Shown in pieces: positions 14,954 to 18,575 of a DNA stretch of 64,000 nt (positions within the stretch are counted from its first letter, which is position 1; each line of letters starts with the position of its first letter). The position numbers and the translations under genes are program-made. The notes below the pieces were generated by a model. It saw only the letters and a program-made list of their open reading frames with translations. It ran no database searches and was not told where the DNA came from. The stretch comes from an uncultured Verrucomicrobiae bacterium. Lineage in GTDB: Bacteria > Verrucomicrobiota > Verrucomicrobiia > Limisphaerales > UBA1100. The stretch covers positions 1 through 64,000 of the forward strand of contig CALKBX010000023.1 in the NCBI GenBank assembly GCA_937775205.1. The letters are read 5' to 3'.

Positions 14954-15499
14954 ATGAAACAACTACTCATAACCCCATTGATTGCCACGCTTCTGATTGG
15001 CTGCGGCAAGAAAGAAGAAGAAACCTCGAAACCAGCCCCACCCGATGTGGAAGTCTTCAAGGCAGCAGGTGAAGGGAATCTTGAGGCACTCAAGCAACAT
15101 ATCGCAGCCGGCACCGACCTGAATCAGCGTTCGACGGACGGTCAAAAATCCACCCTGCTGATAACGGCTGCCGCCTTCGGGCATGTGGAAGCGACCAAGG
15201 CGCTTATTGAAGCCAAGGCGGACTTGAACCTCCAAAACAAGGATGGCAGTACCGCATTGCATACGGCCGCGTTCCTGTGTCACCCCGAGATCGTGGAGGC
15301 ACTCCTGAAGGCGGGCGCGGATAAGGCAATCAAAACCAATACAGGTGCAACCGCACTTGATGGAGCACAAGCACCTTGGGATGATATGAAGCCTATCTAT
15401 GACCTTTTAAACACATTCATCTACAAACCGAGTGGCATCCCATTGGATTATAATCGAATCCAGCAGACTCGGCCCAAGATCGCCGAAATGTTGCGTTAG
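14954..15499 (+). CDS. Ankyrin-repeat lipoprotein
   Basis: 181-residue lipoprotein: MKQLLITPLIATLLIGCGKK is a signal peptide with lipobox LIGC (lipidated Cys near 17). The mature part is mostly ankyrin repeats: AAGEGNLEALKQHIAAGTDL, TAAAFGHVEATKALIEAKA, DGSTALHTAAFLCHPEIVEA, NTGATALDGA. A distinctive tail (IPLDYNRIQQTRPKIAEML) follows. ATG 14954 is chosen because upstream in-frame codons are not signal-like. The whole mature domain, including the tail, recurs inside the next gene's acyltransferase, and most aligned positions match by eye, so one derives from the other or both from a recent common source. Anchored in the inner or outer membrane facing the periplasm; the binding partner is unknown. 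Confidence 0.9.
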   Translation: MKQLLITPLIATLLIGCGKKEEETSKPAPPDVEVFKAAGEGNLEALKQHIAAGTDLNQRSTDGQKSTLLITAAAFGHVEATKALIEAKADLNLQNKDGSTALHTAAFLCHPEIVEALLKAGADKAIKTNTGATALDGAQAPWDDMKPIYDLLNTFIYKPSGIPLDYNRIQQTRPKIAEMLR

Positions 15500-15515
15500 C
15501 ACTGGGTAACTTTTT

Positions 15516-17288
15516 GTGGAGCAATCTCCTGTCATTGAGTCCACACCGCTTCCGTCGGTGTTGGAAAAGAAACGCTACCATGACCTGGACGCGTTGCGGG
15601 CCTTCGCGATGCTGCTGGGCATTGTACTGCACGGAGCCCTCTCGTTTTTTCCCGTGCCCATTTGGCCGGCGCAGGATTTGCAGCAACCGGAGATCAATGT
15701 GCCCGCCGTACTGGCCGCGCCGCTCGAAAGCGCAGGACTCAAAGTGCCGGCAGACTACAGCCCTTACGAATTTATGCTGCATGCCATTCACGGCTTTCGC
15801 TTACCTTTGTTTTTTTTGGTGAGTGGATTTTTCACGGCGATGCTTTGGAGGAATCGTGGACTCAAGCAACTGGCTAAACATCGTGCCAAGCGGATTCTCC
15901 TGCCCCTTGCCATCTTCGTGCCCATTATCTGGATACTCATTATTCCCGTGGCCATTTATGGTGGTGCTAAAAAGGAGGAGGTAAGAAAACTGCGTGCTCA
16001 GTCAGCCAAGGTAGTTCAACCGAAGGCAAAGCCCCGGGCAAAAAATGATCCTCAGGCTCCAATCGATATCGGTAAGGCCGCAGGCAACGGAAACCTCGAG
16101 GCGATTGAGAGGCACATCAAGGCGGGCACGGGTTTGAATCAGCGCGGGCCCGATCAATCCACCCCACTCATGACTGCAGCCACCTTCGGCCGAGTGGAGG
16201 TTGCCAAGGCATTGATTGAGGCCGGTGCGGATCTGAATATGAAGAGCAAGGATGGTTCAACCGCTATGTTGATTGCATCATTCTTTGCCCATCCTGAAAT
16301 TGTCGAGGCACTACTGGAAGCGGAAGCAGACCCAAATATCAGGAATAATGATGGAGCAACTGCTTTGGATGTGGCTCAAATGCCATGGGAACAAATTAAA
16401 CCTATTTACGATTATGTGGGCCCGATCATGAGCCCGACTGGACTTAAACTGGATTACGAACGGATCCGGGAAACCCGCCCGAAAATTGCAGCAATGCTCA
16501 AGGAAAAGGGGGCGGAAGAGGGAGGGGGCGTCGAGGCCGGTCTCGAAGGATTGGTGATGCTGATTTTTTTCGCGCCGGTGTTTCACCATCTCTGGTTTCT
16601 TTATTATCTGATCTGGTTAGTGCTGGGGTTCATTGCGATCACGTGGTTGCTGGGAAAACTCAAGTGGAAGGCATTACCTGATTGGGTGGTTACTTCGCCC
16701 CTGCGCTTGTTTTGGCTGCTGCCGGTTACCTTTCTAGCACAGTTGTTGATGAAGGACAGTTTTGGGCCCGCTACTGCGACCGGTTTCCTCCCTTGGCCGC
16801 CCATTCTGATTTATTACGCTATTTTCTTTCTCTTCGGCGCTATTTGTTTTGGCCGCGATACGTTTGAAACCAAAGTAGGCAAACTGTGGCCGCTTAGCTT
16901 TGTCCTCGCCGTGCCCCCGCTGCTGGCGGGGTTGTGTCTGGTTAAGAGCCAGAACAACGGTCTCCTGTTGGCCGCCTGCTCTGTTGCCTACGCATGGCTG
17001 ATGATCTCCGGTTTCATCGGTTTCTTCCGCCACTTTTTCTCGAGCGAAAATTCGCGCATCCGGTACATCTCCGATTCCTCTTATTGGCTATACATTATGC
17101 ATCTGCCGGTGATCATGTTCTTCCAGGCAATGGTCAGCACTTGGGATATGCCAAGCTTCCCAAAATTCCTGATTGCATGTGCAGCCACAACACTCCCTTT
17201 GCTTTTGATCTACGCATTTGTGGTCCGGTATACCTTTATTGGCACCTTGCTCAATGGCAAGCGCACCCGGGAAAAAACTCGAGCCTAG
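15516..17288 (+). CDS. Acyltransferase-3 membrane protein with an inserted ankyrin domain
   Basis: 590 residues from GTG 15516; the TTG at 15561 (reading LEKKRYHDLDALR) matches the start of its paralogue and is a good alternative. The family transfers acyl groups to extracytoplasmic sugars (OpgC/acyltransferase 3). Segments: TM1 with the family's conserved His (LLGIVLHGAL, H39); TM2 (FRLPLFFLVSGFFTAML); a basic loop (WRNRGLKQLAKHRAKR); TM3 (ILLPLAIFVPIIWILIIPV). Then residues about 185-335 are an ankyrin domain homologous to the upstream lipoprotein, followed by the remaining helices (HHLWFLYYLIWLVLGFI onward). By the positive-inside rule the insert faces the periplasm, the same side as the lipoprotein. 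The paralogue at 17370 has only a short loop here. Fusion or insertion is seen directly; its function is inferred. Confidence 0.9.
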   Translation: MEQSPVIESTPLPSVLEKKRYHDLDALRAFAMLLGIVLHGALSFFPVPIWPAQDLQQPEINVPAVLAAPLESAGLKVPADYSPYEFMLHAIHGFRLPLFFLVSGFFTAMLWRNRGLKQLAKHRAKRILLPLAIFVPIIWILIIPVAIYGGAKKEEVRKLRAQSAKVVQPKAKPRAKNDPQAPIDIGKAAGNGNLEAIERHIKAGTGLNQRGPDQSTPLMTAATFGRVEVAKALIEAGADLNMKSKDGSTAMLIASFFAHPEIVEALLEAEADPNIRNNDGATALDVAQMPWEQIKPIYDYVGPIMSPTGLKLDYERIRETRPKIAAMLKEKGAEEGGGVEAGLEGLVMLIFFAPVFHHLWFLYYLIWLVLGFIAITWLLGKLKWKALPDWVVTSPLRLFWLLPVTFLAQLLMKDSFGPATATGFLPWPPILIYYAIFFLFGAICFGRDTFETKVGKLWPLSFVLAVPPLLAGLCLVKSQNNGLLLAACSVAYAWLMISGFIGFFRHFFSSENSRIRYISDSSYWLYIMHLPVIMFFQAMVSTWDMPSFPKFLIACAATTLPLLLIYAFVVRYTFIGTLLNGKRTREKTRA

Positions 17289-17369: not shown

Positions 17370-18575
17370 TTGGATAAAAAACGCTATCATGATCTGGATG
17401 CCTTGCGCGGCTTTGCCATGCTTCTAGGCATTGTCATTCACGGCCTCTTGTCTTTCATGCCGATCCCGATTCCGGGTGTTCCACAGGATATCAACCAAAA
17501 TCCGGAGGTATACGGGTATGTGTTTAATTTTATTCATGGGTTTCGAATGCAGCTCTTTTTCCTGATCAGCGGGTTCTTCACAGCCATGCTGTGGCGTAAA
17601 CAAGGCCTACGAAAGCTCTTCAAGCATCGTGCCAAGCGTATTCTGGTTCCACTGATAATTGCCATGCCGATTCTCTGGATATTTGGGATTGCCATTATAG
17701 GGATGGATGCCGATTTCCCCTTCGCGCAGGCGGAGGCGAAGTTTGAAGAAAGCATTAACAATCCCATAGCATTGTTGGCTATGGGGATATTGGCTCCCGT
17801 GACAGGTCACTTGTGGTTTTTGTACTATTTGCTTTGGTTAATAGTTGGCTTTGCGGTTGTCATAAAACTGATAGAAAGATTTCGGATCAAGCCGCTCTCC
17901 TCACGGATGATTCGCTCACCCTGGCTCTGGCTGGGACCGCTCACCCTATTACCACAACTCTTCAATGGCTTGATTGGCATGATTATTGGCCTCCCCATGA
18001 TCGGTCCCGATACTTTTGGTGGAGTAATCCCCTGGCCGCCTCAACTCATTTACTACGCGGTCTTTTTTGGCTTTGGCGCCATTTGCTATGGCCGCGAGGA
18101 ATTTGACTTAGCCATTGGACGGCGATGGCAGGCTAGTTTTATTTTGTCTATTCCCGCATTGCTACTGGCTATCCATTGGATCGAACTGCGCAATGCAGCA
18201 TTCAAGGCGGGCTGGAATGGCAACCAGTCGGAAATTATTTGGTATCACTTCCTAAGCAACCTGGGTCAGTTATTTTTTGCCTGGCTGATGATCTTTGGCT
18301 TCATCGGATTCTTCCGGCGTTTCTTTTCCAAGGAAAACAAAAGGGTGCGCTACATCTCCGATGCATCCTACTGGATCTATATAGCGCATATGCCCCTCAT
18401 TATGGCGTTGCAATTTTGGGTAAGCAAATGGCCCTATTCGAGTTTTCTGAAGTTCCTTTTTATTTTCACCATAACGTTAGGAATTCTCATACTGATCTAT
18501 GAATCCGCCATCCGCTACACTTGGGTCGGCACCATGCTCAATGGCAAACGGACGCGTGAATCAGCTAGCACCTAG
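17370..18575 (+). CDS. Acyltransferase-3 family membrane protein
   Basis: 401-residue polytopic membrane protein, about ten hydrophobic segments, beginning at TTG 17370 (KKRYHDLDALRGFAMLLGIV). The conserved TM1 histidine is H24 (IVIHGLL). It is a close paralogue of the preceding protein throughout (FRMQLFFLISGFFTAMLWRK, GHLWFLYYLLWLIVGFA, RRFFSKENKRVRYISDASYW, YTWVGTMLNGKRTRES) but has a loop of about 30 residues where the neighbour carries the ankyrin domain. Similar proteins acylate or succinylate periplasmic glucans and surface polysaccharides using cytoplasmic acyl donors. It sits 81 bases after the paralogue and 41 before the peptidase gene, so co-transcription is likely. Confidence 0.88.
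   Translation: MDKKRYHDLDALRGFAMLLGIVIHGLLSFMPIPIPGVPQDINQNPEVYGYVFNFIHGFRMQLFFLISGFFTAMLWRKQGLRKLFKHRAKRILVPLIIAMPILWIFGIAIIGMDADFPFAQAEAKFEESINNPIALLAMGILAPVTGHLWFLYYLLWLIVGFAVVIKLIERFRIKPLSSRMIRSPWLWLGPLTLLPQLFNGLIGMIIGLPMIGPDTFGGVIPWPPQLIYYAVFFGFGAICYGREEFDLAIGRRWQASFILSIPALLLAIHWIELRNAAFKAGWNGNQSEIIWYHFLSNLGQLFFAWLMIFGFIGFFRRFFSKENKRVRYISDASYWIYIAHMPLIMALQFWVSKWPYSSFLKFLFIFTITLGILILIYESAIRYTWVGTMLNGKRTRESAST

Follow-up and report, generated by a model that had tools for sequence, protein, structure and literature searches.

The acyltransferase encoded at 15516-17288 in the window, a 64,000-nucleotide stretch of DNA from an uncultured Verrucomicrobiae bacterium, is an AT3/TmAT enzyme with a four-repeat ankyrin module inserted between its third and fourth transmembrane (TM) helices. 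About 130 other genes have an ankyrin module at this position, and comparison of near-identical enzymes with very different inserts suggests that this loop accepts cassettes. In the reading favored here, which is given about even weight, the module sits at the periplasmic acyl exit of the enzyme and serves there in docking or specificity, as a domain that can be exchanged. The features of the locus, which include an adjacent ankyrin lipoprotein and a plain AT3 paralogue, all three genes on the + strand, are collected in Table 1.

Table 1. Features of the ankyrin lipoprotein and acyltransferase locus (window positions)
Feature	Position	Strand	Basis
Ankyrin lipoprotein CDS, 181 aa	14954..15499	+	ORF; Pfam Ank_2 E 2.3e-17
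Lipoprotein signal peptide and lipobox LIGC (residues 14-17; Cys17 expected to be lipidated)	14954..15004	+	sequence pattern MKQLLITPLIATLLIGC
Lipoprotein ankyrin module, residues 32-181, C-terminal cap LDYNRIQQTRPKIAEML	15047..15496	+	
AT3 acyltransferase with ankyrin insert, 590 aa, GTG start	15516..17288	+	Pfam; AF2
AT3 N part, residues 20-148, TM1-TM3	15573..15959	+	Pfam stretch 22-144; invariant columns
AT3 ankyrin module, residues 183-330, four repeats and cap helix 314-330	16062..16505	+	Pfam 188-277; AF2 helices 185-330
AT3 C part, residues 356-586, TM4-TM10	16581..17273	+	PF01757 positions 116-325; AF2 helices
Plain AT3 paralogue, 401 aa, short TM3-TM4 loop	17370..18575	+	Pfam; fold match HGSNAT

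A split acyltransferase core

The original prediction, made from the letters of the DNA, held that ankyrin repeats interrupt the acyltransferase and that the paralogue at 17370 has only a short loop at the same place. Profile searches bear out both statements, including the coordinates of the insert. In the window enzyme, Acyl_transf_3 is split in two with Ank_2 between the halves (Pfam, residues 188-277, E 1.1e-15), and in the paralogue the same domain runs without interruption. The enzyme scores 99.2 bits against PF01757, for which the curated cut-off is 31, and five ankyrin models exceed their cut-off in consecutive repeats. The acyl-CoA/catalytic motifs D25xxR28x10H39 in TM1 and R123xxR126 at TM3 are invariant in 35 of 35 ankyrin-AT3 proteins, for which reason the window enzyme looks competent. 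DxxRx10H is found in 124 of 128 ankyrin-bearing AT3 genes, the remaining four being N-terminally short ORFs.

An AF2 model from a 23-sequence alignment (mean pLDDT 82.9, pTM 0.67) contains TM1-TM2, a TM3 helix at 116-166, a disordered linker at 167-181, ankyrin helices at 185-330, a second low-confidence linker at 338-355, and then TM4-TM10, for a total of 10 TM helices. This model leaves the ankyrin domain without a fixed placement against the pore, given its pTM value and linker pLDDT below 50. Structural comparison of the plain paralogue by VIA-align gives HGSNAT (Z 14.0, rmsd 5.3, 297 residues aligned) and GWT1 (Z 11.8), both of them TmAT proteins, with the next unrelated row at 6.4. These two surfaced only with VIA-align: Foldseek with the paralogue returned nothing under E 0.3, a sequence search of solved structures with the paralogue gave no match, and Foldseek with the whole window enzyme returned mostly ankyrin structures, largely designed ones. 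Taken together, the modeled helices of the enzyme and the HGSNAT match of its paralogue predict a 10-TM TmAT fold.

Position and content of the TM3-TM4 loop

The inside loops of the enzyme contain 3, 7, 2, 3, 2, and 6 Lys and Arg residues and the short outside loops 1, 1, 0, and 0, a distribution that places the ankyrin insert outside. Together with the AF2 helix order, this count predicts that the insert in the TM3-TM4 loop is periplasmic, the side originally proposed, with the module seated on a prolonged TM3 helix followed by a flexible linker. Between the N- and C-terminal acyltransferase blocks lie 165-348 aa (median 200) in the 128 AT3 genes that bear ankyrins, compared with 24-65 aa in 12 plain AT3 genes. 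A long periplasmic TM3-TM4 loop has already been described in OafB and Oac (PMC9833829); the window AT3 uses the same loop but fills it with a domain. The loop can hold a second domain as well. In some members of genus g5, as at L046 (7699-9930, − strand), the ankyrin repeats in the AT3 loop are followed by a PA14 domain.

The module might instead act in cis as a lid, closing or shaping the pore mouth and binding a glycan or lipid acceptor with no protein partner, much as SGNH does in AT3-SGNH enzymes. OafB models place this loop on the side of the acceptor (PMC9833829), PA14 follows the ankyrins in the same loop of some relatives, and most ankyrin-AT3 genes are found without a module-bearing neighbour, all of which would suit such a role. 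Its linkers, however, are predicted to be flexible, and the occurrence of the module in many unrelated exported proteins better fits a general binding module, leaving the lid an unlikely alternative.

Relation to the adjacent lipoprotein

The lipoprotein and the window AT3 share their ankyrin repeats and tail, as first noticed from the sequence and now seen by Pfam and BLASTP (E 7e-59; 103/200 identical, 52% over 200 aa). Identity over the module is about 61%, and the alignment extends through the tail (LDYNRIQQTRPKIAEML in the lipoprotein, LDYERIRETRPKIAAML in the enzyme). Because this tail lies beyond the canonical repeats, the likeness exceeds general ankyrin resemblance, supporting a common origin of the two modules. 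BLAST also pairs the lipoprotein signal peptide with TM3, which is taken as hydrophobic chance. By its lipobox pattern, the product of 14954-15499 is plausibly a bacterial lipoprotein and plausibly resides in the same compartment as the AT3 insert, in keeping with the original proposal that the two act on one side of the membrane.

The further proposal that the lipoprotein domain was copied into the neighbouring acyltransferase is not supported. The two modules are homologous and adjacent, and the window module nests among lipoprotein-type modules, as a recent local duplication would have it, but the insert is 98% (G001) and 82% (L150) identical to other AT3 inserts versus about 61% to its neighbour, and inserts occupy the same site across phyla. 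Such a duplication is thus very improbable. An older event at the base of the family, in which an emptied loop received a lipoprotein module again, could still have taken place, because the plain paralogue adjoins the ankyrin-bearing clade. An artificial assembly join, envisaged in the original prediction as a possible refutation, can be set aside as practically negligible. The window does come from a draft genome of 31 contigs, but a survey found the same arrangement in independent assemblies (G001, G003-G006, and L150-L155) as well as in K23_9, the record of a complete genome.

Separate histories of enzyme and module

The enzymes of the window genome and G003 are 93% (N) and 91% (C) identical in their flanks and 47% identical in the module; for the window and L150 enzymes, the corresponding values are 85%, 82%, and 82%. 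A tree constrained to unite the window, G001, and G003 modules is rejected (AU p 3.6e-14). Forcing the flanks into the module grouping gives AU p 0.03, and genus-level incongruence of the flanks is no stronger than this. In a wider set, a single clade of all AT3 modules is rejected (AU p = 0.00026). The AT3 modules of the window family nest in the tree among lipoprotein, CotH, and propeller modules, apart from other AT3 modules, and the AT3 flanks of the same family form one clade (98/95). Plain paralogues of the family adjoin its ankyrin-bearing clade (82/85) within the ankyrin-bearing part of the AT3 tree.

These sequence comparisons show module and enzyme histories to be incongruent, and they support derivation of the window family's AT3 module from the pool of lipoprotein, CotH, and propeller modules. 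The native module may have been replaced outright, or the loop may first have lost it and later gained one of lipoprotein type. Two module types run through the genus, L150-L152 included, where the AU test for one clade gives p = 0.050; a swap confined to the window lineage was dropped as a reading once L150-L152 had entered the tree. In the best explanation, a second exchange would separate members of the genus. Near-identical flanks with 47% identical modules, and the mixed grouping of those modules, therefore argue that the loop takes up cassettes that can be exchanged, drawn from a pool of exported ankyrin proteins, which are sometimes encoded in the same gene cluster as the AT3. A single genus with near-identical enzymes and different modules amounts to a natural swap experiment.

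Distribution

AT3 proteins with an ankyrin module at the TM3-TM4 site occur in 68 genomes of the order, representing 11 families. Among named GTDB contigs, ankyrin-AT3 is present in 80 of the best 80 loci, so that the spread is a lower bound of at least 80 loci: 52 from Verrucomicrobiota, 19 from Planctomycetota, 2 each from Acidobacteriota and Chloroflexota, 1 from Poribacteria, 1 labelled Legionellales, and 3 unplaced. The single odd phyla in this set may be binning errors. The complete genome of Planctomycetes bacterium K23_9 contains an ankyrin-AT3, as does Thalassoglobus neptunius KOR42. The ankyrin-AT3 on the contig labelled Legionellales (L169, 4676-6370), the module branch of which is among the longest, possibly reflects transfer or mis-binning. 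A literature search for ankyrin with AT3, CotH, or Planctomycetes, with subscription journals mostly outside its coverage, found no description, in accord with the earlier statement that no ankyrin-interrupted acyltransferase-3 was known. The architecture is thus widespread and apparently undescribed.

Other hosts of the module and their linkage to AT3

Beyond AT3, lipoproteins carry between one and three copies of the module, CotH kinase-like proteins have it at either the C or the N terminus, and YNCE-propeller proteins of ~1090 aa have it C-terminally. An RDD-family membrane protein at L139 (3507-5642, − strand), with a C-terminal module of the same type, and a PQQ-propeller protein are further hosts. 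In many of these proteins the sequence pattern indicates a lipobox or another signal for export. The window genome encodes one of the YNCE beta-propeller proteins (contig C5), a 1087-aa product at L052 (7024-10284, − strand) with a C-terminal module of the same type; a search of this genome for a CotH protein found none. Two cap residues are highly conserved across host groups, Arg321 being near-invariant (91-100% in all groups) and Leu328 present at 90-100%.

For 30 of the 131 distinct ankyrin-AT3 genes, at least one further gene with the module is found within 6 kb; of the 41 neighbours of this kind, 33 are upstream on the same strand. These counts lean on families f1 and f2 and include one ORF (L112, 9091-9681) that is probably a wrong-frame artefact. 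Chance proximity would be expected at ~1%, because the same query finds two non-AT3 module genes in the 3.25 Mb window genome. For the other 101 of 131 genes, some of them on short contigs, no second module gene lies within 6 kb, and a co-encoded partner is therefore not obligatory. One gene run in family f2 encodes ankyrin-AT3 together with a lipoprotein and a two-module CotH protein. The run at L103 (1505-13451), on one strand throughout, comprises a PQQ propeller, DUF1501, ankyrin lipoprotein, CotH with two modules, GYF_2 protein, ankyrin-AT3, PEMT, ECF sigma, zf-HC2, and ankyrin-YbjQ (the YbjQ domain assigned from the L099 orthologue), and may be a sigma-controlled envelope operon. At L035 (1009-2187, G003), a CxxCH protein, the N terminus of which resembles that of the adjacent lipoprotein, is encoded between tandem ankyrin lipoproteins and the ankyrin-AT3 gene.

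The linkage raises the question of whether the lipoprotein, AT3, and, in relatives, CotH modules bind one another to form a single envelope complex, with Arg321 and Leu328 of the cap in the interface. The same module and cap in all hosts, the clustering of hosts in one family f2 gene run, and the upstream same-strand linkage are consistent with homotypic assembly of this kind. The lipoprotein modules of the window genome and G004, however, are 87% identical and the AT3 modules of the pair only 41%; this independent variation between genomes argues against an obligatory pair. The lack of a CotH hit in the window genome and the lack of an ankyrin lipoprotein within roughly 5-8 kb on either side of ankyrin-AT3 in L150 and L152 also weigh against it. 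Ankyrin modules bind unlike proteins more often than they bind each other, a further count against homotypic assembly, which is accordingly considered improbable. The domain-swap pair raised in the original prediction is weakened by the same G004 comparison and by L150 and L152.

Proposed role

In the docking reading favored above, the AT3 pore would take an acyl group from cytoplasmic acyl-CoA and offer it at the periplasmic mouth. There, to judge from its position, host range, and exchange, the ankyrin module would hold the acceptor or a partner protein. The lipoprotein, or in relatives the CotH-like protein, might bind the same kind of partner, either bringing it to the enzyme or competing for it. 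A broader and more tentative proposal, somewhat doubtful at present, is that the four-repeat module with its conserved cap is a cell-envelope plug-in of Verrucomicrobiota and Planctomycetota. Lipoproteins, CotH, beta-propeller, and AT3 hosts would all dock through it on one shared partner, which would bring acyltransferase and kinase-like protein together at a single target; the AT3 loop would be the site of exchange.

Comparison with known systems

The window AT3 resembles the AT3/TmAT enzymes (PF01757; OafB, Oac, and OatA) in its Pfam match, 10 predicted TM helices, DxxRx10H and RxxR motifs, and TmAT fold, with HGSNAT and GWT1 as fold relatives, and it differs from OafB, Oac, and OatA in the ankyrin module of its TM3-TM4 loop. 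Described fusions of AT3/TmAT proteins include a C-terminal SGNH, an N-terminal NRF, the HGSNAT luminal domain, and a racemase (PMC9558356, PMC12423673), none of them ankyrin. The nearest named model is the glucan succinyltransferase MdoC/OpgC (NCBIfam PRK03854; E 1.6e-30 for the window AT3 and 1.4e-43 for the paralogue), but both proteins fall below its cut-off of 338, at 106.5 and 150 bits, respectively. The window genome, 92% complete, has no PF04349 match for mdoG, and classical glucan succinylation by the window AT3 was rejected on this ground.

How AT3 enzymes without SGNH choose and hold their acceptors is posed as an open question in the AT3 review (PMC9558356), for which the ankyrin-AT3s provide a large natural set with a soluble domain of protein-binding type on the acceptor side. 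With AT3-SGNH enzymes such as OafB and OatA, the window AT3 shares an AT3 core and an extracytoplasmic soluble domain on the acceptor side. Its domain, however, is internal rather than C-terminal and needs no 11th TM helix; a Pfam scan of the window AT3 finds no SGNH domain, and the protein ends after TM10. Ankyrin, unlike SGNH, has no known hydrolase or transferase chemistry. Ankyrin repeats in exported proteins are familiar from periplasmic proteins of the AnkB type, as in the hosts of the present module. Unlike the AnkB type, the window module resides in a membrane enzyme and belongs to a family with its own cap helix, common to CotH and beta-propeller proteins.
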